Of a DNA stretch of 57,283 nucleotides, positions 22,850 through 43,472 are shown in pieces. The stretch spans positions 1 to 57,283 of the IMG/VR virus record IMGVR_UViG_3300025132_000044; one strand, 5' to 3'. Below the pieces are notes generated by a model that did not search any database, had not been told where the DNA came from, and saw nothing but the letters and a program-made list of their open reading frames with translations. Position 1 is the stretch's first letter, and each line of letters opens with the position of its first letter. Origin of the DNA: a virus. The position numbers and the translations under genes were made by a program.

Positions 22850-24175
22850 ATGAATAACAAGAAATATATAGAAAATATAGTATTAGAACAATATTATAAA
22901 TTAGCAGTAGAATCGCTGTTTGAACAAACTTCTGTTCCCGATTATAAATTACGATCAATAACAATTGACCCGTTAACGGATAAACAAAAATCTGCATTGA
23001 AAAAAATACCAGGCCGAGTACGAGGATTTCAAATAATTGTAAAAGGAAAAAATTTAAAAAATAATATTACTCATAAACAAATTGTTAGAACTATACAATT
23101 AAGTAAACAATATGGAGATGCCAGTGCATATGGAACAGGAGTTTCTAGACTGTTTGTTGTCGACAAAGTAGATTTAAAGAAAAAAGAAAATAGAAAACAA
23201 ATTTGGATAGTTTTTATAGCTGAATTAAAAGAGGATGATATAAAAAAAATAAATAAACTACCTAAAATTGGAAATTCAAGTTATATTATTCCTAAATCTA
23301 ATTTTCGATCTGTTGATCCTGATTTAGATAACAAAGTAACAGTTGTGTCTAATCCAATTAAAGTTGATATAGAAAAAACAGATAATGAAGATGATCCAGT
23401 TACATCAAATGATGAAGAAGAAATTACAAAGGTTGATGCAGAAAAACCTACATCTGAAGGAGTTCCTTCGTTGGCACCAATGAAAACTTTTGGCCCGTTC
23501 CCAGAAGGTACACCTCCAGCATCAGAAACATATGGATTTACAAATTTAAAAACTGCATTTTCACACGAAAAAAATGGAAGTTATTCAAGAACAAAACCTA
23601 TGTTGTTAACATTTTTAAAACCATTTCAAAGTATACCTGGATTTGGACTTACTTCTACTAAACGAGAAGGTGAAAGGACTGCAAAGGGATATATATCTGA
23701 TCATTATTTTAAAAATCCTGCATCATATGGTGTTGATATAGCATTAAAAAATAGTGAAATAAACGTTGGTAGTGAAAAGGACAAAGATGTTGTTAAAAAC
23801 ACTATAGGCGATAAAATATTTTTATCCATAATGAAAGCTATTGGAAAAGGTATTCCAACAAAAGGAGACGTATTTAATGCAAAATATCCAAATAAAGACT
23901 TTAGAATTCAAGTAATTTGGAGAGATAAAGATCATTATGATCATATACATGTAGGATTAAAAAATCTTAAAGCATTTGATACATGGGAAAAAAAACCTGA
24001 TACCCTTAATAATCCTGATCCTAATAATTCTGATAAAAATACTACAGATAAAAATACTACAGATAATACAGTTGAACCAAATGATAACGAACAGCCAGAC
24101 AATGATAATGTAAACAAAGGTACACCACAACTATCAGATAAATCAACTAACAATATCAAAAAGCGAAAAGCTTAA
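22850..24175 (+). CDS. M15-like peptidase (tail-associated or lytic), 441 aa
   Basis: The protein has an N-terminal helical region with LEQYYKLAVESLFEQ, an acidic linker (about 175-205), then a region that looks like the M15/hedgehog peptidase fold. GYISDHYFKNPASYGVDIAL (about 281-300) supplies a zinc-type His and Asp, and DHYDHIHVGL (about 361-370) gives the final His-x-His. Such enzymes cut peptidoglycan cross-links. The C-terminus is Asp/Asn-rich repeats (DKNTTDKNTTDN) and basic end KKRKA. Because the gp5-like protein lacks lysozyme, this may be the cell-wall enzyme, either in the virion or at lysis. Active-site assignment is from motif spacing only. Confidence 0.6.
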   Translation: MNNKKYIENIVLEQYYKLAVESLFEQTSVPDYKLRSITIDPLTDKQKSALKKIPGRVRGFQIIVKGKNLKNNITHKQIVRTIQLSKQYGDASAYGTGVSRLFVVDKVDLKKKENRKQIWIVFIAELKEDDIKKINKLPKIGNSSYIIPKSNFRSVDPDLDNKVTVVSNPIKVDIEKTDNEDDPVTSNDEEEITKVDAEKPTSEGVPSLAPMKTFGPFPEGTPPASETYGFTNLKTAFSHEKNGSYSRTKPMLLTFLKPFQSIPGFGLTSTKREGERTAKGYISDHYFKNPASYGVDIALKNSEINVGSEKDKDVVKNTIGDKIFLSIMKAIGKGIPTKGDVFNAKYPNKDFRIQVIWRDKDHYDHIHVGLKNLKAFDTWEKKPDTLNNPDPNNSDKNTTDKNTTDNTVEPNDNEQPDNDNVNKGTPQLSDKSTNNIKKRKA

Positions 24176-26268: not shown

Positions 26269-26652
26269 ATGAATAAATTACAAACAAATATGCGAAGATT
26301 TCGAACTAAAAATTTGAATGAAGGATATGTTGATGTTGGAAAATTAGTATTTAGAAAAAAATCAATTGAATCATTAATAAAGGAAAAGGATCCTAAAAAA
26401 ATGATGCAAATAGCAAAAACTATAGTAGATGATTTAGGAGGTACAGAAGAAGCTGAAGAAACTGTACTAGGAGCGTTAGAAACAACAGAACAAATAATTC
26501 CTATAATTAAAGCAGTATTACCAGATAATCCGGTACCGGTTAATAAAAAAGTAATGGTAACATTAGTAAAAGCATTAGCTCCTAATAAATATCAAGAAAT
26601 TTATAAAGAATTAACACAAATAATCAAAAGATTAGGTGTAAATATAGTATAA
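26269..26652 (+). CDS. Small helical hypothetical protein, 127 aa
   Basis: Not recognised. A basic N-terminus (NMRRFRTKNLNEGYVDVGKL) contains L-N-E-G, a good match to the T4 prohead-protease cleavage pattern (L/I-x-E before A/G), so it may be an internal head protein whose first 18 residues act as a targeting peptide. The rest is helical, with a Val/Pro-rich turn (IKAVLPDNPVPVNKKVMVTL). It has its own TATTTATT element and is followed by the largest gap in the window. Confidence 0.6.
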   Translation: MNKLQTNMRRFRTKNLNEGYVDVGKLVFRKKSIESLIKEKDPKKMMQIAKTIVDDLGGTEEAEETVLGALETTEQIIPIIKAVLPDNPVPVNKKVMVTLVKALAPNKYQEIYKELTQIIKRLGVNIV

Positions 26653-26836: not shown

Positions 26837-27781
26837 ATGAAGAACTTAAAACTACTTCAATTATTGGAATCTGTTCTAGGAAAAGGAAAACAAACATCTG
26901 GAGATAATATTGCATTTTTTTCGCCATTTACTTCTCATTATAAACCTAAATTAGAAATTAATATTAATACAAATTCAGATGGACAAAATCCATGGCATTG
27001 TTGGATATCTGATAAAAAAGGAAGATCGATACATTCATTATTTAAACAATTAAAATTATCAAAAGATAAATTTGAAAAATTAAATAAAATAATTGAAAGA
27101 TCTAAGTATAGAAATACTGCTAGTATAAAAGAAACTGAAGAAGTAATACAATTACCAGATGAATATAAGCCATTATGGTTAAAACAAAATACTCCAGACT
27201 ATCGTAATGCAATGTATTATTTAAAAACTAGAGGTATAACATTATTTGATATAATTAGATATAGAATTGGATATGCAGAATCAGGAGCATATTCTGGCAA
27301 AATTATTATTCCTAGCTATGATTCATCCGGTCAATTAAATTATTTTGTATCAAGAGCGTTTTATAAAAATGATCCATATAAACATAAAAATCCTAAAATA
27401 TCAAAAGACATTATTGGATTTGAAATGTTAATTAATTGGAATGAACCTATTATATTATGCGAAGGCGCATTTGATGCAATCACAATTAAAAGAAATGCAA
27501 TTCCACTATTTGGTAAAATAATTAATCCAATGTTACAAATAAAAATTATAGAAGAACATGTTAAAGATATTTACATATGTTTAGATCAAGATGCATTTAA
27601 AAACGCAATGGATATAGCAAAAACATTTATGGCAGAAGGATTAAATGTTTATTTTATAAAATTAGAAACAGAAGATCCTAACGAATTAGGATACAAAAAA
27701 ATTACTGAAAAAATTCAAGATACTTACAAGTTTTCATTTGAAGAAATGATGACACTGGAAATAAACTCATTATGGAAATAA
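26837..27781 (+). CDS. 61: DNA primase, DnaG/gp61 type
   Basis: The 314-residue protein has a TOPRIM domain: Glu209 in PIILCEGAFDAI and Asp250/Asp252 in DIYICLDQDAF, the metal-binding residues of DnaG-type primases. It makes RNA primers for lagging-strand synthesis, working with a gp41-type helicase. The N-terminal zinc-ribbon region (FFSPFTSHYKPKLEIN at 27-42 and WHCWIS at 53-58) aligns with the FxCPxC...WxCWxC pattern, but three of four expected Cys are replaced (Ser29, Thr32, Ser58; only Cys55 remains). It overlaps the SbcDC gene by ten bases and has a sigma-70-like promoter. Confidence 0.85.
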   Translation: MKNLKLLQLLESVLGKGKQTSGDNIAFFSPFTSHYKPKLEININTNSDGQNPWHCWISDKKGRSIHSLFKQLKLSKDKFEKLNKIIERSKYRNTASIKETEEVIQLPDEYKPLWLKQNTPDYRNAMYYLKTRGITLFDIIRYRIGYAESGAYSGKIIIPSYDSSGQLNYFVSRAFYKNDPYKHKNPKISKDIIGFEMLINWNEPIILCEGAFDAITIKRNAIPLFGKIINPMLQIKIIEEHVKDIYICLDQDAFKNAMDIAKTFMAEGLNVYFIKLETEDPNELGYKKITEKIQDTYKFSFEEMMTLEINSLWK

Positions 27782-30700
27782 AAACACTAAAAACAAATAT
27801 TCAATCAATTGATAAAATATTTCATATATCTGATATTCATATTAGGACATTAAAACGACACAAAGAATATCAAGAAGTATTTGATACATTATTTTTACAT
27901 ATTGCTCAACATGCAACGGATCAAAGTATTTGTGTAGTAACTGGAGATATAGTACATTCTAAATTAGATATGTCGCCAGAATTAATTAACATGCTAACAA
28001 AATTCTTTAATGGATTTCATATTCCAACAATTGTAATATTAGGTAATCACGATATGAATTTAAATAATTTATATAGATTAGATGCTATATCGCCAATATT
28101 AGATGTTATTGATAATACAAATATATACTTTATAAAAGAAAATGGGTTATTTAAATTTGCAAACGTTGTATTTAATCATATGGCTGTTGATGTAGCTCCA
28201 AAAGACTATATTCAAGCTAAAGACTTCGATGCTCATTATAAAGTAGCATTACATCACGGAGCTGTACATAACGCAAAAACAGATATTGGATTTCAAATAT
28301 CAAATGATCATGTTACAACAGATTTATTTGAAGGACATGATTTAACATTATTAGGTGATATACATAAGCCTGCACAATTCTTAAACAAAGAAAAAACAAT
28401 TGGATATCCTGGATCATTAATACAACAAAATCATGGAGAAGCACTTAATCACGGCATATTAGTATGGGATTTACCAGATCGATGTTCAGAATTTATTGAA
28501 ATAGAAAATAAATATGGATATGTAACCTTTGAGGTAGATAATGGTAAAATTATTAATTCTCCTAAACGTGTTCCTAATAAACCTAGAGTACGAATTAAAT
28601 TTAATGATACTGATGCATCTGATATTAAAAAGTTAATTGCAACTATTAGAAAAAAATATAAAGTTCAAGATATATCTATACAACGATCTGCAAATCATAT
28701 TGATAATAATCAAAATGGATCAATTGCAATTGGAAATGTTAGAGATGTAGAACATCAAAATAATTTAATAACAACGTTTATTGAAGATAATTATCCAGAA
28801 GCAGATAAAAAAGAATTAGATGCTATACGACATATTAATAGAACAATTAACTCAAAACTGCCAATACTAGAATCTGTAAGAAATGTAACATGGCATCCAA
28901 TATCATTTGAATTTAATAATATGTTTTCATATGGCGAAAATAATAAAGTAGATTTTTCAAAATTATCTGATGTTATAGGATTATTTGCAGCAAATGCATC
29001 AGGTAAATCATCACTTTTAGATGCAATAACATATACAATATTTGATAAATGTAGTAAAACAAGTAAATCAAAAGAAGTTTTAAATAATAAAAAGTCTGGA
29101 TTTAAAGGAGTATTTAAATTTATGTTAAACAATAAATTATATACTATCGAGCGAGAAGGAATAACATTAAAACATGGCCATGTTAAAGTAAATGTAAATT
29201 TTTACAATGAAGATCAAAATTTAAATGGAGAAGAAAGAAGTGATACAAATAAAAGTATTAGAAGATATTTAGGAACGTACGATGATTTTATTTTAACTGC
29301 ATTTTCATTACAAGCAGATAATAATAATTTTATAGAAAAATCTCAAAGAGAACGAAAAGATTTATTATCACAATTTCTTGATACAACAGTATTTGAACAA
29401 CTATACCATTTAGCATCAGAAGAAATAAAAGAAACTTCTGGTAAATTAAAAGAATATAAAAAAACTGATTTTGGTTTAATTATACGTGAATCGGATGATA
29501 TAATTTTAAAAAATCAAGATAAAATTATTGAATTGGAAAAAGGAGATACTGATTTACAAGAATCAAGAAATAATCTACAAAATCAAATAGTAGAATTAAT
29601 TGAGTCTAAACAACCAATGTCATATGATGGTCCAAATATCAAAAAACTACAACAAGATGAATCATCTTTAATTAAAGAAATTGAAGATATAGATATTAAT
29701 TGTAATTCATTAGAAAATAAAATTAATAGTAATAAATCTAATATATCATCATATCAAACAACAATTAATAAAGATCAATTTGAAAAAATATCAAACGAAT
29801 TATCAGATATTATTAAGAAAAAAGATGTAATATCAAATGAAATAAGTACATTAACAAGTTTAATAACTTCACAAAAAAAGAAAATAGATCATTTAAAAAC
29901 TCATGAATATGATGATACATGTAAATATTGTATTGAAAATATATTTGTTAAAGATGCATTAGAAGCAAAAAGATTACTTCCTGGAAATGAATTACATTTA
30001 AAAAATAAAATAGGAGCAGCTGAATTCTTTCAACAACGTATTGATAGATTAAATTCTTCAATTCATGAATATCAAGAAAAAATAAATTTAAAAAATAAAA
30101 TTGAAAAATTAGAATTACAATTACAAATTTTAGAAAGCGATATACAAACAAAAGAATCAGAATTAGAAACTAATGCTGAACGACAAGAATTATTTCGAAA
30201 AAATGAATCAGCTATTACTTATAATGAAACTATAGATAAAAAAATAGAATCAAAAAAGAAATTAATTTCTGAAACCACAACGTTAATAAAAGATATTACA
30301 GATAAAATTAAATCAAATCACGGAGAAATAGAAGTTGCTAAAACACAAAAGAAAACAGCATTAGAACAATTGGATACATATAAACAATTAGAAACTGAAT
30401 ATAAAGCATATGAATATTATTTACAATCTGTAAAGCGTGATGGTGTTCCTTATGAATTAATTAAAAAAGCGTTACCTAAAATTGAAACAGAAATAAACAA
30501 TGTATTAAATCAAGTAGTAGATTTTAATATGGTGTTAAATACAGATGGTAAAAATATTAACGGATATATTATATACGACGAAGATAATTTCTGGCCATTA
30601 GAATTAACATCTGGTATGGAAAGATTTATATCATCATTAGCAATTCGTGTAGCATTAATTAATGTTTCTGCATTACCAAGACCAAATTTTATAGCTATTG

Positions 30701-30882
30701 ACGAAGGTTGGGGTAGTTTAGATAGAGAACATATTTCTGCAGTTACTAATTTATTTGAATATTTTAGAACCAAATTTGATTTTTCTATCATTATATCGCA
30801 TGTCGAATCAATGAGAGATATGGTAGATAACTTAATTGAAGTAAATAAGATTAAAAATTTCAGCCAGATTCTACATACATAA
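27772..30882 (+). CDS. 47-46: Fused SbcD-SbcC (gp47-gp46) recombination nuclease/ATPase
   Basis: One 1036-residue chain holds both halves of the Mre11-Rad50 complex. The nuclease half has HISDIH (18-23), VVTGDIVHSK (56-64) and LGNHDMN (90-96). The ATPase half starts near residue 375 (FEFNNMFSYG) with Walker A ANASGKSS (407-414), a long coiled coil with the zinc-hook CKYC (Cys717/Cys720), the signature LTSGMERFISSLA (about 941-954) and Walker B FIAIDEGWGS (974-983). T4 encodes these as separate genes. The complex processes DNA ends for recombination-dependent replication and helps degrade host DNA. The fusion would enforce 1:1 stoichiometry. It overlaps the primase gene. Confidence 0.9.
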   Translation: MEIKTLKTNIQSIDKIFHISDIHIRTLKRHKEYQEVFDTLFLHIAQHATDQSICVVTGDIVHSKLDMSPELINMLTKFFNGFHIPTIVILGNHDMNLNNLYRLDAISPILDVIDNTNIYFIKENGLFKFANVVFNHMAVDVAPKDYIQAKDFDAHYKVALHHGAVHNAKTDIGFQISNDHVTTDLFEGHDLTLLGDIHKPAQFLNKEKTIGYPGSLIQQNHGEALNHGILVWDLPDRCSEFIEIENKYGYVTFEVDNGKIINSPKRVPNKPRVRIKFNDTDASDIKKLIATIRKKYKVQDISIQRSANHIDNNQNGSIAIGNVRDVEHQNNLITTFIEDNYPEADKKELDAIRHINRTINSKLPILESVRNVTWHPISFEFNNMFSYGENNKVDFSKLSDVIGLFAANASGKSSLLDAITYTIFDKCSKTSKSKEVLNNKKSGFKGVFKFMLNNKLYTIEREGITLKHGHVKVNVNFYNEDQNLNGEERSDTNKSIRRYLGTYDDFILTAFSLQADNNNFIEKSQRERKDLLSQFLDTTVFEQLYHLASEEIKETSGKLKEYKKTDFGLIIRESDDIILKNQDKIIELEKGDTDLQESRNNLQNQIVELIESKQPMSYDGPNIKKLQQDESSLIKEIEDIDINCNSLENKINSNKSNISSYQTTINKDQFEKISNELSDIIKKKDVISNEISTLTSLITSQKKKIDHLKTHEYDDTCKYCIENIFVKDALEAKRLLPGNELHLKNKIGAAEFFQQRIDRLNSSIHEYQEKINLKNKIEKLELQLQILESDIQTKESELETNAERQELFRKNESAITYNETIDKKIESKKKLISETTTLIKDITDKIKSNHGEIEVAKTQKKTALEQLDTYKQLETEYKAYEYYLQSVKRDGVPYELIKKALPKIETEINNVLNQVVDFNMVLNTDGKNINGYIIYDEDNFWPLELTSGMERFISSLAIRVALINVSALPRPNFIAIDEGWGSLDREHISAVTNLFEYFRTKFDFSIIISHVESMRDMVDNLIEVNKIKNFSQILHT

Positions 30883-30908: not shown

Positions 30909-33900
30909 ATGAAGAAAGCTATAGCTAATTTACAGAACTTAGATCGTTTAGATACATATATTACAGATACATCATTATTATCTCCTAATATATTTAATAT
31001 TACACTTTTACCTGATAAATTAACATTAGGTAAAAATTTATTTAAATTAAAAGGAGTACCTAATATATTTCAACCAGGTACTGATTTACAAATTGAAATT
31101 TTAGATTCTAATGGTAATCCAATTTATCATGAAGTGGTTAATAAAATTGATCCAGATAATTCAAGATTTATTGCAATTTATATTTATGACAATACTCCAA
31201 GTGGAGATTGTTTAATAACATTAGCTGCAACATTAGATTCATATAATAACGAATCAATTCCTGCGAGTTGGAGAAATATTGTTAATGCAAAATGGAGTGT
31301 AACTACTCCAGTCGATACAAAATCACCTAATGTAAATAATATTATATTTGATTCATTAAATTTACCAGAAGCAACCGTTTCAGAACAAATTGGAGTACGT
31401 TTAGATAGACAATATAATGATAATACTCAATTTCCAATTTTTTCAGATGGATTAATTGAATTTGAAACCAAAGAAAATTCATCTATAGCAAAAATAACTG
31501 GAGGAGAATTTAGACCAGATATGGTTGGAGGAACATTAACAGTTACATCGCCAGTAAATCCTACACCGTTATCAACTATACCAACATCTTCTGCTAGAAT
31601 ATATTCTTCTACTATTAAAAAAGTATTAAGTAAAGATTTTATACAATTAGATAATAAATTTGTATTTACATTAAGTCAAAGTTTATCTCAACATCAATAT
31701 ACAAAATTTGATCCATCTTCATATACTATAGAATATGAAGCAGCTCCAAATTATATAGGTACCCAACATTCTGAATCATTTGCATTAACTGAAATTACAA
31801 AATTAGATCCAGCAATTGGGGATATTTCAAGAATTAAATTATATATTAATAGTTCAGCAACAATTGGAACATTTGAATTAATTAATGATATCTTATTAGA
31901 ACCAACTGAAATATTTGTAGATGCAACTGGATCAATATTACCAGATGTTGGAGTTGGTTTTTTTACATCTCAAAGCATTATTGATGAATATTGGGAATCA
32001 CATACATATATTGGAAAAACAGAAGATGGTGCGCCTACATTAACATTTACAACAAGCTCATTAAATAATGCTGTTTCAATATTACCTTCGATTGATTATT
32101 CAAATGATGATAGTGTTTTAATATTTCAAACAAAAGAATCATTACCAGGAGTATTTGTAGAAAATTCTGAATATAAAATAATCTTTGACGCAATTGCAAC
32201 AAAAAATTCTTTAAGTAATTTTCAATCTCCTAAACTTTCAATATATTTATCAGGCTCATCTTTTTTTAATGATGTTGTAAATACATTAAACGGAGCTTTA
32301 CCAGTATCATTAGGAAGAAAAATTGGTGAACTAGTAATTGATGCTAATCAACAGCGATTAGATGATCAACAATTTGTATTTAATGCTGATAAAACAGGTA
32401 ATGGATCTTTATTATTTGTTATAGAATCTGGAGAATGGCAATTTTCAGATATTAGAACATTGACATCAGCTGAAAATGGATTCACAGAAAATTATACAAG
32501 ATTTAGAACAGATATACCAGTAAAACATAAATCAAATAATGAGTTACAATTTAAAATAGAATATTATAATATAGCTGGTGTTAAAAGTGAACATGAAACA
32601 ATTATAGGAAATAAAGTATTTGAAGGAGGAAATCGTTATATCGACGGCGATTTTTCAATGTTAACTGGTTCATTAACCGTAGCAGATTCTTTAAATTCAG
32701 GTGTTGAAATTGTAGGACTTCAAAATACTGGATATATTAGATCATTAGGATATGAAGGATTTAATCAAGCAACCGGGTCTGGAGGAGGATTTTTATTATT
32801 TTCAGGATCTGCTTTACCACAACAGTCAGAAACATCATATAGTGGAGTTGGTTTAGAATTAGTTGCAAACGAAAATAATTTTTTTAAATATAGAACAGAT
32901 CCTAGTATATTAGACATACATACACAAACATTCTTTTTAGGAAATGAAGCAACTCAATTCATAAGTGGATCTGCAGGACAATTAGAAATATCTTCTTCAG
33001 GATATCATATACAAAATAACGGAGATATTACAGCTTCTAGAATATTAATTGAAGGCGGTACTATAACAGATAATGTAACAATTTTAGGATCTGTCTCTGC
33101 TAATAGTATATTAACACCAGCAATAATTAATGGAAATCCTTCAAACGAAAATAATGCATCTTCATCAATTTCAGATCAAGGATTTGCAAGATTTGTATCT
33201 GCATCTATTGCAGGGTTTGTTGTTAATACTGAAGAAATAAAATCTGCAGATGAATCATTAAGATTAAAATCAGAAGGTCAAATAACGGCATCAAGAGTTT
33301 TATTAGAAGGAGGAACAATAACAGATGGAGTAACAATTTTAGGATCTGTTACAGCAAATAGTATTCAGACTCCAGCTACAATAGGAGGATCTCCTTCAAC
33401 TCCAGCAAATGCATCATCTTCTATATCTTCTACCGGACTTGCAATATTTAAGTCTGCATCAATTGGTGGATGGGATATAACAACTGGCTCAATTGAAGGC
33501 GGTAATCTTATAATGAAACCCGAAGGTATATTACAAACAAAAGATTTTGCTAGTGGATTTAAAGGATGGAAAATATCATCACAAGGAAATGGTACTGCAG
33601 AATTTGAAAATGTAAGAATTAGAGGTACCTTAAGAACAACTACATTTGAAAAAGAATCAGTTAATGCTATTGGAGGACAAGTTTGGGTTGCAAATGCAAC
33701 TACAATAACAGGATCGGGAGTTGCAGCTACTGATACTACGATGTCAGTAAAAAATGCTAGTGGATTTGCTGTTGATGAAATATTATTAGCTAAAAAAGTT
33801 GATTCAACCGGATTTCAGACAGAATATTTACTAGTTGAATCTGCTTCATTAGATGGAGATAATTCAAATGAAGATGAAGTGTTTGGTAGAATATATGTTC

Positions 33901-36900
33901 AGCGTGGATATGGATCTGGTAGTGGTGGTGACTTTGTAGGTGACTTAGCTTCAACATCACAATCATATGATGAAGGACAAGTTATAGTATCAACAGGAAA
34001 AATTGGTACTGGGTATATTAAGATAAATGCAAATCCTAATGACACTGATACTCCATTTATTGATATTGTTGAAAGAACTGGTAGTGGATTATATGATGTA
34101 CAATTGAAAGCAAGATTAGGAGATCTTAAAGGATTAGCTAATTCTGATAGAGTATTCGGAAATTCAAATCCAGGCTTTGGATTACAAACAGATAATGTAT
34201 TTTTGCAAGGAGGTATTAGAGCTAATACAGGTTCTATTGGAGGAATACATTTAGAAGATAATAAATTATATATTGGAGTTGGAAACCATGCAAACGCAGA
34301 TACTGGATTTTATGTTGATTCTAGTTCTAAATTTTCATTAGGAGATAAATTAACATGGGATGGGTCTGCATTAACTGTACGAGGGCAATTAAGATTAGAT
34401 TCAGGACAAAATGTACAAGATGCTATTAATGAAGCCACTGCTTCAAATACAGCAAAAACATTAGTTTTAACTTCAGATTCACAAATTTTTGCATTTGAAA
34501 GTGCAAGTGATAGCACAGCAGATCCAACTAATATTATATTTAAAATAGCTCAACAGAATTTAAATGCTAGTATATCTGCTAGTAATATTACTATTACAAC
34601 CCCCGCAGGAGCAGCTGTTACAAATTTTGATTTTGATACCGGAAGCGTTTCTCCAAATTCATCAGTACCACCGTTATATAGTGGTGTAGTTAGCGGAAGT
34701 TTAACATTTGCAGGAGCTTTGGATGCTGGAGGTTTAAATAGCGATAAAACAAATCTTCCAGTAACTATAGTTGCAACAAGGGATGGATTATCAGACACTA
34801 CAACTATATTCAAAATACAAGGTGGCTCATCTGGGTCTGATGGTGTTAGTGGGCAAAGTGCTAAATCATTAGTAGCATCTGTAGATTCTCAAGTATTTGC
34901 ATTTGATAGCGCTAGTGACAATACAGCCGATCCATCAAATATTATATTTAGTTTTAATCAACAAAACTTAACAAGAGCATTAGCATCAACAGATGTACAA
35001 GTTAAAACAGCTGGAGGTTCTGATATAACTGGATTTAGTTTTGATAATAACAGTATAACAAGCGGAACAGGTATAGTTAGTGGTAGTATAGTATTTGCAA
35101 GTGCATTAGGTAGCGGAGGTGTAGGAGCAGATAAAGCAAATCTACCAATAACAATTACAGCTAGTTTAGACGATTTAACAGATATTATAAAAGTATTTAA
35201 AGTTCAAGGTGGATCATCTGGTTCTGATGGTACAGACGGTACAGATGCGGTAACAGCATTTTTAACCAATGAAGCTCATACATTTGCGTCATTAAACAAT
35301 GGAACAATCGTTTCATTTACAGGAGGAACTTCAGATATGGAAGTATTTGAAGGTATTACAAATGTTACTGCAAATTACACATTCACCGGATCTAATTCAG
35401 ATGGTGTTACCGCAACTAGTTCAAGCAATAGCCTTACTATAACTGGAATGAGTTCTGATAGCGGATCTATTAACTTTACTGCAAAATCAGCGAGTGTTAG
35501 CTTAACCAAAACAATGACATTGGCTAAATCTAAACAAGGAACACAAGGACTATCAGGAGCAAATGCTAAATTATTAACAGTAACGTCAGACTCACAAGTA
35601 TTTTCATTTCCATCTGCGTCATCCAATACACCAATTGATAATGATATATTGTTTATAATTAATCAACAAAATTTATCAACAGAAATTGATAGTTCTGAAA
35701 TTTCAATTACTACACCAGGAGGATCTGCAATAACTGGCTTTTCATTAAAAACTGATGTGGCAAATAATTCTGGATTATTTACAGGTGAAGTTTCTGCTAG
35801 CATTTCATTTACTGGTGCAACGGATGCAGGAGGATTAAATTCAAACAAATCAAATTTACCGTTAACTATCACAGTATCATCTGGATCATTGAATGACACA
35901 ACAAAAATCTTTAAATTAGAAGGAGGAAGTTCAGGTTCAGACGGAACAGACGGAACAGACGGAGTTACAGCATTTTTAACTAATGAATCTCATACTTTTC
36001 CAGCAGATCAAACTGGTACAATTGCATCATTTGCTGGTGGAGAAACAGAAATGGAGGTTTTTGAAGGTATTACAAATGTTACTACAAATTATACCTTTAC
36101 AGGATCTAATTCTGAAGGAGTAACTGCTACCAGTTCAAGTAATAGTTTAACAATTACAGGATTATCAAAAGATTCTGGATCAGTTAATTTTACAGCTAAA
36201 TCCGCTAGCGTATCAATTACTAAGACAATGTCGTTAGCTAAATCCAGACAAGGTCAATCTTCAATAACTGCATTTTTAACTAATGAGTCCCAAACATTCC
36301 CAGCTAATTCATCTGGTGTTGTTTCTAGTTTTGCTGATGGAACAACTATAATGGAAGTATTTAATGGACTAAATAATGTAACTTCCAGCTTTGCATTTAC
36401 TGGATCAAATACAGACGGAGTTACAGCAACTAGTTCTAGTAATGAAATACAAGTAACCGGAATGGCACATGATTCTGGTTCTATAACATTTACAGCAAAA
36501 TCTGGATCAGGTGACGGATTAGTTTCAATTTCAAAAATATTTTCATTAGCTAAATCAAGAGCTGGAGTAGACGGATCAGGTGCAAGTGCCAGAATGTTAT
36601 CAGTAACAACAGATTCTCAAATATTTTCATTTGCGTCTGCATCATCAGATATTGCATTAGATGATGATATATTAATAATAATTAATCATCAAAATTTAAC
36701 TAGTTCACCATTACCAAGTGATATTACAATAAAAGATTCAAATGGTACTACCATAACAAATCCTACATTTGTTTCATCATCCACATCAGGCACTGGTCAA
36801 GTTTCTGGTAGTATAACATTTAGTAGTACATTGAGTGGTACTAAAAGTAAATTGCCTATAACAATTGAAGCGTCAAAAGATTCTGTTAGTGATATAACAA

Positions 36901-39900
36901 CAGTATTTGGACTTAATGGAGGTTCAGATGGTACCGACGGAGTAAATGGGGCAACTGCTAAATCATTAATAGCGTCTGTCGACTCACAAGTATTTTCTTT
37001 CTTAAGTGCAAGTGATAGCACAGCAGATCCAACTAGTATTATATTTAGCTTCAATCAACAAAATTTAAATGCGGCTATTGATAGTTCTGATGTCACAATA
37101 TCAACTGCTGGCGGAAACGTTACAAATTTTGATTTTGATAATAATAGCGTAACAAATTCAGGAGGTAATTTTAGTGGTATAGCATCTGGTAGTATATCAT
37201 TTGCTGGAGCGTTGGATGCTGGAGGATTATCATCTACAAAAACAAATCTGCCAGTAACTATATCAGCTACAAAAAATAGTTTAACAGATACAATAAAAAT
37301 ATTTAAAGTTCAAGGTGGATCATCTGGATCAGATGGAAGCGATGGAAGCGATGGTACTGATGCTGTAACTGCATTCTTAACTAATGAAGCTCATACATTT
37401 GCAGCACAAAATAACGGTACTGTTGTATCATTTACAGGTGGTACTACTGATATGGAAGTATTTGAAGGTATAACTAATGTAACTTCTAATTACACGTTCA
37501 CCGGATCTAACTCAGACGGCGTTACTGCAACAAGTTCTAGTAACTCATTAACAATTACAGGTATGAGTCATGATAGTGGATCTGTTAATTTTACTGCAAA
37601 ATCTGCTAGTGTTAGTCTAACAAAAACTATGACACTAGCAAAGTCAAAACAAGGTACACAAGGTTTAAGTGGAGCAAATGCTAAATTATTAACAGTTACA
37701 TCTGATTCTCAAGTATTTGCATTTCCGTCTGCATCTTCAAATGATGCTGTTGATAACGATATTTTATTTATAATCAATCAACAAAATTTATCAACAGAAA
37801 TTGATAGTTCAGAAATATCTATAACAAATCCTGCAGGATCAGCAATAACCGGATTTTCATTAAAAACCGATGTAGCAAATAATTCTGGTTTATTTACCGG
37901 AGAAGTTTCAGCAAGTATTACTTTTACAGGAGCTACAGATGCCGGCGGATTAAATTCAGACAAATCAAATTTACCATTAACTATCACAGTAACATCAGGA
38001 TCATTAACAGACACTACTAAGATTTTTAAATTAGAAGGCGGTTCTTCAGGGTCAGATGGATCTGATGGCGCTGCAGGATCTGATGGCGCTGATGCGGTAA
38101 CTGCATTTCTTACAAATGAAGCACATACCTTTGCCGCAGATCAGGCTGGAAATATAGCTTCGTTTGCTGGTGGTACCACTGACATGGAAGTATTTGAAGG
38201 CATTACAAATGTTACTGCAAATTATACATTTACTGGTTCAAACTCTGAAGGAGTTACCGCAACAAGCTCAAGTAATAGTCTTACTATAACTGGGTTATCA
38301 CAAGACTCTGGATCTGTTAATTTTACTGCAAAATCTGCAAGTGTATCAATTACTAAGACAATGTCTCTTGTAAAGTCTAGGCAAGGGCAATCTGCAATAA
38401 CTGCATTTTTAACTAATGAGTCCCAAACATTCCCAGCTGCAGCTAATGGAACTATATCTGACTTTTCTGTTGGTACAACAACAATGCAGGTATTTGAAGG
38501 ATTAACAAATGTAACATCTAGCTTTGCATTTACAGGTTCAAATTCTGATGGAGTAACTGCTACTAGTTCTAGTAATGAAATTCAAATTACTGGTATGTCT
38601 CATGATTCTGGTTCTATAACTTTTACTGCAAAATCTGGATCTGGTGATGGATTAGTGTCAATATCAAAAGTATTTGCATTAGCTAAATCAAGAGCAGGTA
38701 CAGATGGTACTCCTGGTTCTAGTGCAAAATTAATTACATTAACAACCGATTCTCAAATATTTTCATTTCCATCTGCATCTAGTAGCGATGCTATTGATGA
38801 TGATATACTATTTATTATAAATCAACAAAATTTAGATTCTGCAGTTGTAACTGGTAATATTACTATAAAAGATTCAGGAGGATCGACATTAACTAATCCT
38901 AGTTTAGAAACAGACGTTACATCAGGAACAGGTCAAGTATCAGGTAGTATTACATTTAGTGGTACAGTTGGAGGAGATAAAACTAAACTTCCTTTAACAA
39001 TTGAAGTAGCTCGTGATAGTGTTAGTGACACAACAAGAATTTTTAAATTAGAAGGAGGTTCATCTGGATCAGACGGATCAGACGGATCAGACGGACAATC
39101 AGCAATAACTGCGTTTTTAACTAATGAATCTCATACATTCCCAGCTGCAGCAAACGGCACTGTTCCAGACTTCTCTACTGGAACTAGTGATATGATCGTG
39201 TTTTTAGGTTTAGATAATGTTACATCTAATTTTACATTTACTGGATCTAATTCTGATGGTGTTACTGCTACAAGCTCAAGTAACTCATTAACTATTACAG
39301 GAATGAGTCACGATTCGGGATCTATTAATTTCACAGCAGTTAGTGCAAGTGTTAGTTTAACTAAAACAATGAATTTAGCTAAATCAAAAACAGGCGAAAC
39401 TGGATCTACTGCTAAAACATTAACATTAACAACTGATTCTCAAATATTTTCATTTTTATCTGCTTCATCTAACGATGCAATTGACGATGATATATTGTTT
39501 ACAATTAATCAACAAAATTTATCAGGAACAATTGGAAGTGGTGATATAACAATATCAACAGCTGGTGGAGTTCCTACTCTTATTACTAATTTCTCATTAG
39601 ATAATAACAGTGTTACATCTGGGACAGGAATTGTATCTGGAAGTTTAACCTTTACGGGAGCAACAAATGCAGGAGGATTAAATTCAACAAAAAGCAATCT
39701 TCCAGTAACAATTACTGTAACAAAAGACAGCTTAACAGATACAACTAGAATTTTTAAATTAGAAGGCGGATCATCTGGATCAGATGGATCAGATGGAGCT
39801 GCTGGAGCAGACGGAGCTCCTGCGGTAACCGCATTTCTTACAAATGAAGCTCATACATTTCCTGCAGATGTTAATGGAACTATTTCTAGTTTTACCGAAG

Positions 39901-42900
39901 GTAGTTCATCAATGGTTGTTTTTGTTGGACTTGAAAATTCAACATCTAGTTTTAGTTATTCAAAAACAGATAGTACAGGAGTTACCTCAACATTATCTGG
40001 AACAGATGGAAATATAATAGCTATATCTGCCATGGCTCATGATTCTGGATCTGTTGATATAACTGCAACTAGTGCAAGTGTTAGTGTTACTAAAACAATG
40101 ACTCTAGCAAAATCAAAACAAGGTGCTCAAGGAACCGCTGGAGCAACTGGTGCTACTGGTCCCAATTTTGATTTTTTAACTGGATCTATATCTGAAATTA
40201 ATACTCAAGGAGGATTAAATGCAGGATTGTTAATGACTTCTGATGTATTAGGATTTCATGGTAATATTTCTGCAGGAGATGGAACCAATGCAAAAGTAAC
40301 TGACTTTATATCATTTTTAGACTCATCTGGTAATTTCTTTATAGGATCACAATCATCAGGACATTTTGCATATTCTCAAGCAACTGGAGAATTATTAATA
40401 AGTGGATCAAATGTTGATATAAGAACTCCTAAATTCTTTTTAGGACAAGAAAATGTACAATTTATATCTGGATCTGATGCAAAAATAGAAATATCATCAT
40501 CTAATTTTCATTTAACTCCTGAAGGCAATGTTACCATGTCTGGAACAATCACAGCAACAGCTGGTACTATTGGAGGATTTGAAATAACTGATACTCAAAT
40601 TAATTCTTCAAATGATAATTTAATTCTAAAATCATCAGGACAAGTAACTGCATCTACGTTATTATTAACTGGAGGATCTGTTGCCGGTATGCCAGTTAGT
40701 TCTGATGAAATATCAGTAGGAAGTGTTTTAAAATTAAAAGATTCTGGTCAAATAACTGGATCAAAAGTATTATTTAGTGGTGGTACTATTGGAGGATTTG
40801 ATTTAACATCAACTCAAATTAATTCTACTAATAACAATTTAATATTAAAAGACTCTGGCCAAATAACTGGATCTAATGTGTTATTCGATGGAGGAACAAT
40901 TGGAGGATTTAACATTTCTAGTGATGCTATTTCAGATACAAGCAATAATCTTGTTTTATCAGGTTCAGGTAAAATTACTGCTAGTGCTGGATTAATAGGA
41001 GGATTTGATTTAACGTCTGGAGAATTACGAGGAGGAGTTGAAAATCAATCGTATATAAGTCAATCTACATCAATAACACTTGTTTCTGGAAGCTTTCAAG
41101 GTCAGGTTCAAAATAACAAAAACAGTATTGGAGGAATTTCTCAAATTAGCACTAATGCAACAAATTTTGAAGGAGTTTTAGATCCAGCAACAATTGTAAA
41201 TACTACAACTAATCCTAGTGCATCTGAAGATGTTTTTGTAGTTGCTTTTGCTGAAGGTGCTTATGTTAATGCGTTTACCAACACTGCAACATCTGCAGCA
41301 ACTAGCATAGCTAAAGTAGCTGGATTTTCTAATTTAGAAGCCGGTCCTGTTGAATTTAGCCAAGTTTCATTAGACGGATTTACAGGAAATGCAGTAGATA
41401 CTTGCAATTTCAATTTTATTACTAGTACTGCAGCAACTCCACTGACTCCGGACGTATTTAATCCATCATCTGGATATGAATCATCTTCAGTTATAAATCA
41501 TAGTTTAACTAGAACACTTACAAAAATAAAATTAGATTCTGATAATAGATCAATATCAATTAACACTTCTAGTTTTGGAAGTGATGGAATACAACTAGAA
41601 GTAGATTCAAGTACAAATCGTCCAAGATTTTTTGCAGGATCTAATACAGGAAGTTTTTTCAAATATGATGGTACAGATATTGCAATTTCAGCTTCTAATT
41701 TTAGTGTATTAGACGGAGATATAACTGCAAATCGAATAGAATTAGCAGAATATTCTAAAGCTGATTATTTTGTATTTAAATTAATAACAATAACAGAAGC
41801 AACATCAGGTTCTTATTTTGAAGAATATACTTTAAGTGGCGACACATATTATAAATTAGTATTAGATGGAACATTAGGAGGATCTATAGCACAGTCTGTT
41901 AGAATAAATGTAACTCCAGAATATCCAATTGGAATGATACAACCTCCTGTAAAATTGAATAATCAAGGACATGAAGTAACAATTGAATCTGGAATTGGTA
42001 CTGGAATTGGTTATTCATCAAGAGTTGCAGTTAGTGGAAGTAATATATATAGTTACGGATTTTCAGCTGATAATGATGATTGGTTCAATCAATTATTTCA
42101 AACGAGAGTTTATCCAGCTGGCGGAAGTACTACATATGGAGGCGGTAGCGTAGGAGATCTAGGAGCATCTGCAGGTCGTGTAATGGTACAAAACATAGGT
42201 CAACGATTTAAATTTGTTAGATCAGCATTTGATTTTAGATTATTAGGAATATCAAGTTATGATACTACAGCAGATGGAAACTTTAATTCACAAGGATTAA
42301 TAAATTTCTTTTCAGGACTTCGTGCAAGTAATGGTCCTATAGGAATTGGAATTACTGGTACTAACAAAATGACTGCAGGTTATGCTTTAGAAGTTAACAA
42401 TATTGTTGATAGAGCTGGAACTACTACCGATGATGTATTATTTCATGGTAATGTAAGTGGTAGTGTATTTTCTGGATCTTTTGTTGGAGACGGATCAGGA
42501 TTAACCGGAGTATCAGGTGGCGGTGGTGGTAGTGGTGATATAACAGCTGTTACAGCCGGCAATGGATTAACAGGCGGAGGAACAACAGGAGCGGTATCAT
42601 TAGCAGTAGGAGCTGGTACGGGTATAGACGTTACTTCTACAACTGTTGCGGTTGATGTATCTGATTTCATGAGTAATGGTTCTAATAACAGAGTAGTTAC
42701 TGCTACCGGAGCAGACGGAATGAATGCCGAAGCTAACATGACATTTGATGGTACTAATTTATTAGTTAGCGATGATACAGCAGGAGCATATGCAAATATT
42801 GGTAGAACAAGAGTTGGTTATACAGCTTATACTGATTATGCACACATTTCACATAGAGATTTAACATCTGCAGGAGAATATGCATTATTACAATCTGCTG

Positions 42901-43472
42901 CAGGAGATACATTTATAAATGCTAAAAGTGGCAAAACACTTCATTTACGAATAAATAATTCATCGATAGCTAGTATAACCTCAACCGGATTTAATAATTT
43001 ATATTCAACCGGTAAAATAGGATATGATACAACAGATTATATTACATTCACAAATAATACTAGAATGGATGTTTATATAAATAATAGTAATGAATTTAGA
43101 TTTGAATCAGATGGTGACTTTCATGCTGATGGAGATGTTATAGCATCATCAACTACTGTATCTGATTCTAGATTAAAAGACAATATAATACCAATTGGTG
43201 GAGCGTTAGACAAAATAAAATCTTTAAGAGGTGTTTCATATACATGGAATTCTGGAAAGAAAAAAGGTAAACAAGATATAGGTTTAATAGCACAAGAAGT
43301 AGAAGAAGTATTACCAGAAATAGTTAAAGATAAAAAAATGCCATTAATGGATGGTATAGATTCAAATGAAACATATAAAACTATTGACTATGAAAAAATT
43401 ATTGCAGTACTTGTAGAAGCAGTTAAAGATCAACAAACACAAATAGACGAATTAAAAAGAAAAATTAAATAA
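30909..43472 (+). CDS. Giant tail fibre, 4187 aa, with module array and S74 chaperone
   Basis: Residues 1-1180 are an N-terminal attachment and shaft region with recurring strand motifs (SGQITASRVLLEGGTI-like). Residues 1182-3085 are 16 modules of two types: type A (about 123-139 aa; starting AK-L-L-T-V-T-S-D-S-Q) and type B (100-113 aa; starting VTAFLTNE), joined by Gly-x-Asp collagen-like linkers such as GSDGTDGTD. Residues about 3090-4080 hold further shaft motifs (GGTIGGFDLTSTQINS). The end (from about 4083; VSDSRLKDNIIPIGG, GLIAQEVEEVLPEIV) is an S74 intramolecular chaperone with the self-cleavage Ser and Lys five residues apart. The fibre probably recognises host surface glycans or proteins. 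Confidence 0.9.
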   Translation: MKKAIANLQNLDRLDTYITDTSLLSPNIFNITLLPDKLTLGKNLFKLKGVPNIFQPGTDLQIEILDSNGNPIYHEVVNKIDPDNSRFIAIYIYDNTPSGDCLITLAATLDSYNNESIPASWRNIVNAKWSVTTPVDTKSPNVNNIIFDSLNLPEATVSEQIGVRLDRQYNDNTQFPIFSDGLIEFETKENSSIAKITGGEFRPDMVGGTLTVTSPVNPTPLSTIPTSSARIYSSTIKKVLSKDFIQLDNKFVFTLSQSLSQHQYTKFDPSSYTIEYEAAPNYIGTQHSESFALTEITKLDPAIGDISRIKLYINSSATIGTFELINDILLEPTEIFVDATGSILPDVGVGFFTSQSIIDEYWESHTYIGKTEDGAPTLTFTTSSLNNAVSILPSIDYSNDDSVLIFQTKESLPGVFVENSEYKIIFDAIATKNSLSNFQSPKLSIYLSGSSFFNDVVNTLNGALPVSLGRKIGELVIDANQQRLDDQQFVFNADKTGNGSLLFVIESGEWQFSDIRTLTSAENGFTENYTRFRTDIPVKHKSNNELQFKIEYYNIAGVKSEHETIIGNKVFEGGNRYIDGDFSMLTGSLTVADSLNSGVEIVGLQNTGYIRSLGYEGFNQATGSGGGFLLFSGSALPQQSETSYSGVGLELVANENNFFKYRTDPSILDIHTQTFFLGNEATQFISGSAGQLEISSSGYHIQNNGDITASRILIEGGTITDNVTILGSVSANSILTPAIINGNPSNENNASSSISDQGFARFVSASIAGFVVNTEEIKSADESLRLKSEGQITASRVLLEGGTITDGVTILGSVTANSIQTPATIGGSPSTPANASSSISSTGLAIFKSASIGGWDITTGSIEGGNLIMKPEGILQTKDFASGFKGWKISSQGNGTAEFENVRIRGTLRTTTFEKESVNAIGGQVWVANATTITGSGVAATDTTMSVKNASGFAVDEILLAKKVDSTGFQTEYLLVESASLDGDNSNEDEVFGRIYVQRGYGSGSGGDFVGDLASTSQSYDEGQVIVSTGKIGTGYIKINANPNDTDTPFIDIVERTGSGLYDVQLKARLGDLKGLANSDRVFGNSNPGFGLQTDNVFLQGGIRANTGSIGGIHLEDNKLYIGVGNHANADTGFYVDSSSKFSLGDKLTWDGSALTVRGQLRLDSGQNVQDAINEATASNTAKTLVLTSDSQIFAFESASDSTADPTNIIFKIAQQNLNASISASNITITTPAGAAVTNFDFDTGSVSPNSSVPPLYSGVVSGSLTFAGALDAGGLNSDKTNLPVTIVATRDGLSDTTTIFKIQGGSSGSDGVSGQSAKSLVASVDSQVFAFDSASDNTADPSNIIFSFNQQNLTRALASTDVQVKTAGGSDITGFSFDNNSITSGTGIVSGSIVFASALGSGGVGADKANLPITITASLDDLTDIIKVFKVQGGSSGSDGTDGTDAVTAFLTNEAHTFASLNNGTIVSFTGGTSDMEVFEGITNVTANYTFTGSNSDGVTATSSSNSLTITGMSSDSGSINFTAKSASVSLTKTMTLAKSKQGTQGLSGANAKLLTVTSDSQVFSFPSASSNTPIDNDILFIINQQNLSTEIDSSEISITTPGGSAITGFSLKTDVANNSGLFTGEVSASISFTGATDAGGLNSNKSNLPLTITVSSGSLNDTTKIFKLEGGSSGSDGTDGTDGVTAFLTNESHTFPADQTGTIASFAGGETEMEVFEGITNVTTNYTFTGSNSEGVTATSSSNSLTITGLSKDSGSVNFTAKSASVSITKTMSLAKSRQGQSSITAFLTNESQTFPANSSGVVSSFADGTTIMEVFNGLNNVTSSFAFTGSNTDGVTATSSSNEIQVTGMAHDSGSITFTAKSGSGDGLVSISKIFSLAKSRAGVDGSGASARMLSVTTDSQIFSFASASSDIALDDDILIIINHQNLTSSPLPSDITIKDSNGTTITNPTFVSSSTSGTGQVSGSITFSSTLSGTKSKLPITIEASKDSVSDITTVFGLNGGSDGTDGVNGATAKSLIASVDSQVFSFLSASDSTADPTSIIFSFNQQNLNAAIDSSDVTISTAGGNVTNFDFDNNSVTNSGGNFSGIASGSISFAGALDAGGLSSTKTNLPVTISATKNSLTDTIKIFKVQGGSSGSDGSDGSDGTDAVTAFLTNEAHTFAAQNNGTVVSFTGGTTDMEVFEGITNVTSNYTFTGSNSDGVTATSSSNSLTITGMSHDSGSVNFTAKSASVSLTKTMTLAKSKQGTQGLSGANAKLLTVTSDSQVFAFPSASSNDAVDNDILFIINQQNLSTEIDSSEISITNPAGSAITGFSLKTDVANNSGLFTGEVSASITFTGATDAGGLNSDKSNLPLTITVTSGSLTDTTKIFKLEGGSSGSDGSDGAAGSDGADAVTAFLTNEAHTFAADQAGNIASFAGGTTDMEVFEGITNVTANYTFTGSNSEGVTATSSSNSLTITGLSQDSGSVNFTAKSASVSITKTMSLVKSRQGQSAITAFLTNESQTFPAAANGTISDFSVGTTTMQVFEGLTNVTSSFAFTGSNSDGVTATSSSNEIQITGMSHDSGSITFTAKSGSGDGLVSISKVFALAKSRAGTDGTPGSSAKLITLTTDSQIFSFPSASSSDAIDDDILFIINQQNLDSAVVTGNITIKDSGGSTLTNPSLETDVTSGTGQVSGSITFSGTVGGDKTKLPLTIEVARDSVSDTTRIFKLEGGSSGSDGSDGSDGQSAITAFLTNESHTFPAAANGTVPDFSTGTSDMIVFLGLDNVTSNFTFTGSNSDGVTATSSSNSLTITGMSHDSGSINFTAVSASVSLTKTMNLAKSKTGETGSTAKTLTLTTDSQIFSFLSASSNDAIDDDILFTINQQNLSGTIGSGDITISTAGGVPTLITNFSLDNNSVTSGTGIVSGSLTFTGATNAGGLNSTKSNLPVTITVTKDSLTDTTRIFKLEGGSSGSDGSDGAAGADGAPAVTAFLTNEAHTFPADVNGTISSFTEGSSSMVVFVGLENSTSSFSYSKTDSTGVTSTLSGTDGNIIAISAMAHDSGSVDITATSASVSVTKTMTLAKSKQGAQGTAGATGATGPNFDFLTGSISEINTQGGLNAGLLMTSDVLGFHGNISAGDGTNAKVTDFISFLDSSGNFFIGSQSSGHFAYSQATGELLISGSNVDIRTPKFFLGQENVQFISGSDAKIEISSSNFHLTPEGNVTMSGTITATAGTIGGFEITDTQINSSNDNLILKSSGQVTASTLLLTGGSVAGMPVSSDEISVGSVLKLKDSGQITGSKVLFSGGTIGGFDLTSTQINSTNNNLILKDSGQITGSNVLFDGGTIGGFNISSDAISDTSNNLVLSGSGKITASAGLIGGFDLTSGELRGGVENQSYISQSTSITLVSGSFQGQVQNNKNSIGGISQISTNATNFEGVLDPATIVNTTTNPSASEDVFVVAFAEGAYVNAFTNTATSAATSIAKVAGFSNLEAGPVEFSQVSLDGFTGNAVDTCNFNFITSTAATPLTPDVFNPSSGYESSSVINHSLTRTLTKIKLDSDNRSISINTSSFGSDGIQLEVDSSTNRPRFFAGSNTGSFFKYDGTDIAISASNFSVLDGDITANRIELAEYSKADYFVFKLITITEATSGSYFEEYTLSGDTYYKLVLDGTLGGSIAQSVRINVTPEYPIGMIQPPVKLNNQGHEVTIESGIGTGIGYSSRVAVSGSNIYSYGFSADNDDWFNQLFQTRVYPAGGSTTYGGGSVGDLGASAGRVMVQNIGQRFKFVRSAFDFRLLGISSYDTTADGNFNSQGLINFFSGLRASNGPIGIGITGTNKMTAGYALEVNNIVDRAGTTTDDVLFHGNVSGSVFSGSFVGDGSGLTGVSGGGGGSGDITAVTAGNGLTGGGTTGAVSLAVGAGTGIDVTSTTVAVDVSDFMSNGSNNRVVTATGADGMNAEANMTFDGTNLLVSDDTAGAYANIGRTRVGYTAYTDYAHISHRDLTSAGEYALLQSAAGDTFINAKSGKTLHLRINNSSIASITSTGFNNLYSTGKIGYDTTDYITFTNNTRMDVYINNSNEFRFESDGDFHADGDVIASSTTVSDSRLKDNIIPIGGALDKIKSLRGVSYTWNSGKKKGKQDIGLIAQEVEEVLPEIVKDKKMPLMDGIDSNETYKTIDYEKIIAVLVEAVKDQQTQIDELKRKIK
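34860..36956 (+). repeat. Six-module superunit, first copy (A-B-A-B-B-A)
   Basis: Modules A2-B1-A3-B2-B3-A4 have lengths 130, 105, 133, 100, 108 and 123 aa. They match the next block in order, type and length. Confidence 0.8.
36957..39104 (+). repeat. Six-module superunit, second copy (A-B-A-B-B-A)
   Basis: Modules A5-B4-A6-B5-B6-A7 have lengths 136, 105, 139, 100, 109 and 127 aa. The copy abuts the first one exactly and points to an ancient duplication of about 2.1 kb. Confidence 0.8.

Follow-up and report, generated by a model that had tools for sequence, protein, structure and literature searches.

Persi et al. (2016; PMC5120217) used Nei–Gojobori dN/dS to set repeats inside one protein against their orthologues in other species; they found fixed repeats to be under purifying selection, yet diverging faster within a protein than from one species to another. 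Theirs is the one directly relevant paper that was found in the literature on codon diversification in repeat proteins, and searches on the length of homology at T4 deletions and on the repeats of adhesins yielded nothing that was used. The window analysed here (W), which is the 57,283-nucleotide IMG/VR record IMGVR_UViG_3300025132_000044, encodes a long tail fibre built in part of repeated modules; its relatives are designated by L-numbers (L001, L003 and so on). Matches in sequence and in predicted structure give the fibre a likeness to tandem Ig-like tail proteins, such as the T5 pb4-like protein of Pectobacterium phage My1, and to PHROGs 33923 and 38396 and Enterococcus phages 9181 and VRE9_4. 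The isolate fibres examined contain one to three recognisable copies of the modules, whereas the W fibre contains 16 of them and a block duplication.

The fibre gene and its module array

The tail fibre ORF predicted from the sequence (30909..43472, plus strand) encodes 4187 amino acids, and its C-terminus is a Peptidase_S74 domain, an intramolecular chaperone. Its PHROG matches are tail proteins, including the long tail fibre distal subunit, and its structural context within the window consists of a T4-like portal, a T4-like terminase and a baseplate wedge gene. The S74 C-terminus, the distal-subunit match and the T4-like portal and terminase make up its likeness to T4-type long tail fibres and S74 fibres. 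To our knowledge, the T4 fibre has no Ig-like repeat array. In the W fibre, 16 Ig-like modules with Gly-rich linkers occupy 34452..40157 (plus strand) in the order A1 A2 B1 A3 B2 B3 A4 A5 B4 A6 B5 B6 A7 B7 A8 B8, the A modules being about 125 and the B modules about 95 residues long. An AlphaFold2 model of B1–A3 built from a 52-row alignment shows two all-beta beta-sandwich domains (pLDDT 91, pTM 0.56), and the structures that Foldseek matches best to it are tandem Ig-like domains and phage tail proteins. The ORF is thus predicted to encode an Ig-like modular tail fibre of a T4-like phage. The linkers within 34452-40157 are rich in Gly-x-y, as in GSDGSDGAAGADGAPA and GAQGTAGATGATGP, and look collagen-like by eye, which suggests that they may be short collagen-like trimer segments between the Ig-like domains. 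A second, shorter repeat family is seen in the same fibre at 40539-41014, with a spacing of about 110 nt and a DNA identity that reaches 84% across 73 nt.

Six modules of the array are repeated as a block of about 2.1 kb. Unit 1 of this super-repeat (A2 B1 A3 B2 B3 A4) lies at 34860..36956 and unit 2 (A5 B4 A6 B5 B6 A7) at 36957..39104, both on the plus strand. The conserved core B1 A3 B2 of unit 1 (35250..36263, plus strand) has 90–93% protein identity to the core B4 A6 B5 of unit 2 (37365..38396, plus strand), and codon identity between the two cores is at the random level. The longest exact DNA repeat of the array is 44 nt in length, with one copy at the end of B2 running into B3 (36262..36305, plus strand) and the other at the end of B5 running into B6 (38395..38438, plus strand).

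Codon and protein divergence between the repeat units

The super-repeat contains two stretches of 77 codons in the frame of the fibre ORF, one running from B1 into A3 (35370..35600, plus strand) and the other from B4 into A6 (37485..37715, plus strand), for which the first-pass annotation had counted 36 synonymous differences and 3 amino-acid changes. This count is exact: 38 codons are identical, the amino-acid changes are A/S, S/H and I/V, and DNA identity is 79.7%. The 36 synonymous differences comprise 30 confined to the third position, 4 Leu TTR/CTN exchanges and 2 Ser box switches, the last being the AGC/TCA and TCA/AGT changes that had been claimed. Independent draws from the fibre's own codon usage would leave 39.9 ± 3.9 of the 74 conserved codons identical, compared with the 38 observed; codon agreement between the two stretches is therefore fully randomised, neither above nor below random. 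Ser boxes are not random, with 8 of the 95 conserved Ser positions over the whole super-repeat switching box against about 40% expected at random. Since Ser boxes are this far from random, the super-repeat copies are clearly homologous and have changed mostly by single-step synonymous mutation.

Module-pair dN/dS was calculated by the Nei–Gojobori method for all A and B pairs in W, and dS over these pairs ranges from 0.57 to 2.48, mostly 0.8–1.8. Protein identity, dN/dS and codon identity are 92.6%, 0.032 and about 0.52–0.53 for B1/B4, 92.0%, 0.056 and 0.59 for A3/A6, and 90.5%, 0.043 and about 0.50–0.51 for B2/B5. The expected codon identity for these three core pairs is 0.54–0.55 and their dS is 0.95–1.71, and so dN/dS values of 0.03–0.06 go together with saturated synonymous sites. 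Protein identity is lower in the other super-repeat pairs, being 67% for A2/A5, 63% for A4/A7 and 83% for B3/B6, the last of which still shares codons (59 of 80 identical, z 3.9). Since synonymous sites are saturated, maximum-likelihood dS (GY94) often ran to very high values, reaching about 100, or to its bounds, and it was left out of dating.

Relatives, age of the duplication and non-duplicated controls

Both the repeats and the N-terminal part of the fibre have relatives in IMG/VR. L001 and L002 carry the super-repeat in the same order as W, orthologous module by module, whereas L003 and L005 carry a single unit, with 10 modules. Since the super-repeat is common to W and L001, the duplication is older than the split between them. 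A switch between TCN and AGY at a conserved Ser needs two steps and is hence slow, and it was used as a clock. The switch rate is 0–1% between W and L001, 5–8% between super-repeat paralogues and 10–15% between W and L003, compared with about 40% at random, and so the L003 split would have come before the duplication and the duplication before the L001 split. These sequence comparisons place the duplication before the W/L001 split and probably after or near the L003 split, a date that we infer from the switch rates. Four-fold site identity is 0.41 between the W core paralogues, 0.43 between W and L003 orthologues, 0.83 between W and L001 orthologues and 0.45 at random; dS is thus no guide to the age of such repeats, but Ser-box switches remain usable. 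At the level of whole units, paralogues and W–L003 orthologues look alike, with 80% protein identity and 0.595 codon identity between units 1 and 2 of W, and 75–82% and 0.59–0.63 between W and L003. Core protein identity is 90–93% between the two W units and 78–87% between either unit and L003. The low dN/dS of the core, the presence of the super-repeat in L001 and the Ser-box date bear out the earlier proposal that strong purifying selection acts on an old duplication.

It had also been left to comparison with orthologues whether the scrambling is an excess specific to repeats, and for this module class it is not. The non-duplicated module L030_B3 has 94.7% protein identity to L031_B2, 92.6% to L003_B4 and 91.6% to W_B7, and its codon identity is at the random level with each of them (about 0.51–0.52, 0.54 and about 0.49–0.51, respectively), with 44 of 87 codons identical to those of L031_B2 where 0.51 is expected. 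When all pairs with at least 90% protein identity are ranked by codon identity, W_B7/L030_B3 and W_B2/B5 are the lowest, followed by L030_B3/L031_B2 and then by B1/B4. The A module adjoining L030_B3 still shares codons with its orthologues, and within L030 6048-8156 the single module L030_B3 looks like a replacement by a diverged version.

Residual codon agreement, defined as the observed minus the expected codon identity divided by one minus the expected, is about 0 for the core repeats of W and about 0.16 (pooled) for those of L001. The single-copy SbcCD, terminase and portal genes have residual agreement of 0.24–0.31 at 90.6–91% protein identity. Since these three genes are less scrambled, the modules sit at the low dN/dS end for the phage group. 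A survey of 36 contigs at 0.80–0.95 protein identity gave a residual of 0.04–0.11 for within-genome pairs and 0.29–0.51 for between-genome pairs, the within-genome pairs being far more codon-diverged on average because none of them is young, whereas most of the between-genome set are young orthologues.

Three other ORFs of the window were noted. One ORF of 1036 residues (27772-30882) combines an SbcD-like phosphoesterase (residues 15–199) with an SbcC-like ATPase (residues 382–638 and a C-terminal SMC part), and by its sequence it is a fused gp47/gp46-type protein. A 441-residue protein (22850-24175), whose DHYDHIHVGL motif is by eye like that of M15-type peptidases, has 71–72% protein identity to its L018 counterpart, yet 93% of the conserved codons are identical (dS 0.23, dN 0.20, ratio 0.89), which is the opposite of the fibre-repeat pattern. 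A 127-residue ORF (26269-26652) has 87% protein identity to L001 with dN/dS of about 1 and dS of 0.05.

Origin of the codon divergence

These observations are best explained by ordinary ageing of an old block duplication under strong protein selection, with no special anti-recombination code, and we give this reading a probability of roughly 0.8. Before W and L001 parted, a block of several modules would have been duplicated, or a second copy of it taken up. Purifying selection would then have kept the protein identity of B1/B4, A3/A6 and B2/B5 near 92% as ordinary, mostly single-step mutations carried synonymous positions to saturation by drift, and short recombination tracts and linker crossovers may still occasionally reshuffle the array. 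We infer both the duplication mechanism and the structural nature of the constraint, which would be folding and trimer assembly.

The array itself has changed between relatives. Two blocks of two modules distinguish W from L001, A7–B7 (38724..39410, plus strand) being found only in W and B1–A2 only in L001. Where A7–B7 is missing, the L001 linker is B6-side sequence in its left part and A8-side sequence in its right part; the A1–A2 linker of W similarly joins parts of the two L001 linkers. Since close orthologues of A7–B7 hold the same relative place in L003, the absence of this block from L001 is most simply a deletion. Relatives thus differ by whole modules, and therefore codon divergence is no bar to module loss. 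Young internal duplicates were not found in 24 multi-module fibres (0 of 261 same-type within-fibre pairs with at least 50% protein identity), which may reflect repeat instability, import of diverged modules or collapse in short-read assembly; several relative contigs end inside the fibre. The six isolate phages fetched have 1–3 recognisable modules each, too few to serve as a young-duplicate control, and a DNA-level search of phage isolates gave a single match of 76 nt.

Codon avoidance was examined by permuting synonymous codons within each of eight arrays while keeping the protein unchanged. A deficit of exact shared tracts relative to the shuffled genes was not found in any of the eight; there is an excess instead, which has the same sign at k=12–24 in 8/8 arrays, although it is not significant in every array. 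The W array has 102 exact shared 21-mers compared with 22 after shuffling, and its longest exact repeat of 44 nt compares with a mean of 28 nt. Identical codons are clustered between units 1 and 2 of W (p<0.001), weakly between unit 2 and L003 (p=0.03) and not between unit 1 and L003 (p=0.81), which fits short tracts of recombination within the genome. At doubly varying synonymous sites, those at which each of the two modules compared has changed between the two genomes, 7 disjoint contig pairs give 153 matches within genomes and 164 across genomes (p=0.33). W/L001 alone leans towards avoidance, with 26 matches within and 44 across (p=0.057), and when this comparison is made on matched pairs, which are non-independent, the mean difference is -0.01 (Wilcoxon p=0.014). 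A weak effect may exist, but the codon shuffles, the matched W/L001 sites and the 7 disjoint contig pairs give no convincing sign of active codon avoidance.

The first-pass annotation had offered selection against DNA repeats as the alternative to purifying selection; synonymous changes that break identity would then be advantageous, since recombination between identical modules leads to their deletion. The greater codon divergence of high-identity within-genome pairs, relative both to the average between-genome pair and to the three single-copy genes, would favour this if the survey were taken alone, and the lean in W/L001 and the lack of a young duplicate in any of the arrays examined point the same way. 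Exact tracts are in excess of those in codon-shuffled genes, however, the genome shows clustering of its identical codons, the 7 contig pairs show no significant deficit, core codon identity equals the random level rather than falling below it, and the non-duplicated L030_B3 is just as scrambled against its orthologues; such selection is therefore very improbable. Survivorship, in which recombination removes identical repeats and leaves the diverged copies with no selection on individual synonymous changes, agrees with the absence of young duplicates from the 24 fibres, with the longest exact repeats of 25–63 nt in the eight arrays measured and with the occurrence of module deletions at linkers, but identical repeats may cause short-read assemblies to break or collapse, so that the absence of young duplicates may be an artefact, and we consider survivorship unlikely. 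A further reading, in which the recombination system of the phage removes identical copies, codon divergence is the condition for repeat persistence and arrays are built and kept only from DNA-diverged modules coding for near-identical protein, is rather doubtful, even though exact repeats in these eight arrays do not exceed about 60 nt. Were it true, the repeats open to a phage fibre would be limited by homology-dependent deletion, which these data do not show.

Import of unit 2 from a diverged relative, with codons different from the outset, would produce an identical picture and is a somewhat unlikely but tenable source of the second copy. The lineages do exchange modules, W_A7 being 93% identical to L003_A4 and 63% to W_A4, and the apparent replacement in L030 is of this kind. 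The core modules of units 1 and 2 are nevertheless closer to each other than to those of L003, and no donor turned up in the collections that were searched. Convergence, or independent recoding of one protein, would also bring codon identity to the random level, but Ser boxes are kept at 92% of the conserved Ser positions compared with about 60% at random, which requires common descent and rules convergence out.

The fibre repeats are a clear case in nature of synonymous saturation under tight protein constraint within a single gene. In agreement with the pattern described for repeat proteins (PMC5120217), most W module pairs have dN/dS of about 0.2–0.6 within the fibre and mostly 0.04–0.17 between W and L001. 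The three core pairs show the opposite, since their dN/dS of 0.03–0.06 within the protein is at or below the value of about 0.09–0.15 obtained for the same modules against L003. The core of the super-repeat is therefore an unusually conserved exception among the W modules.
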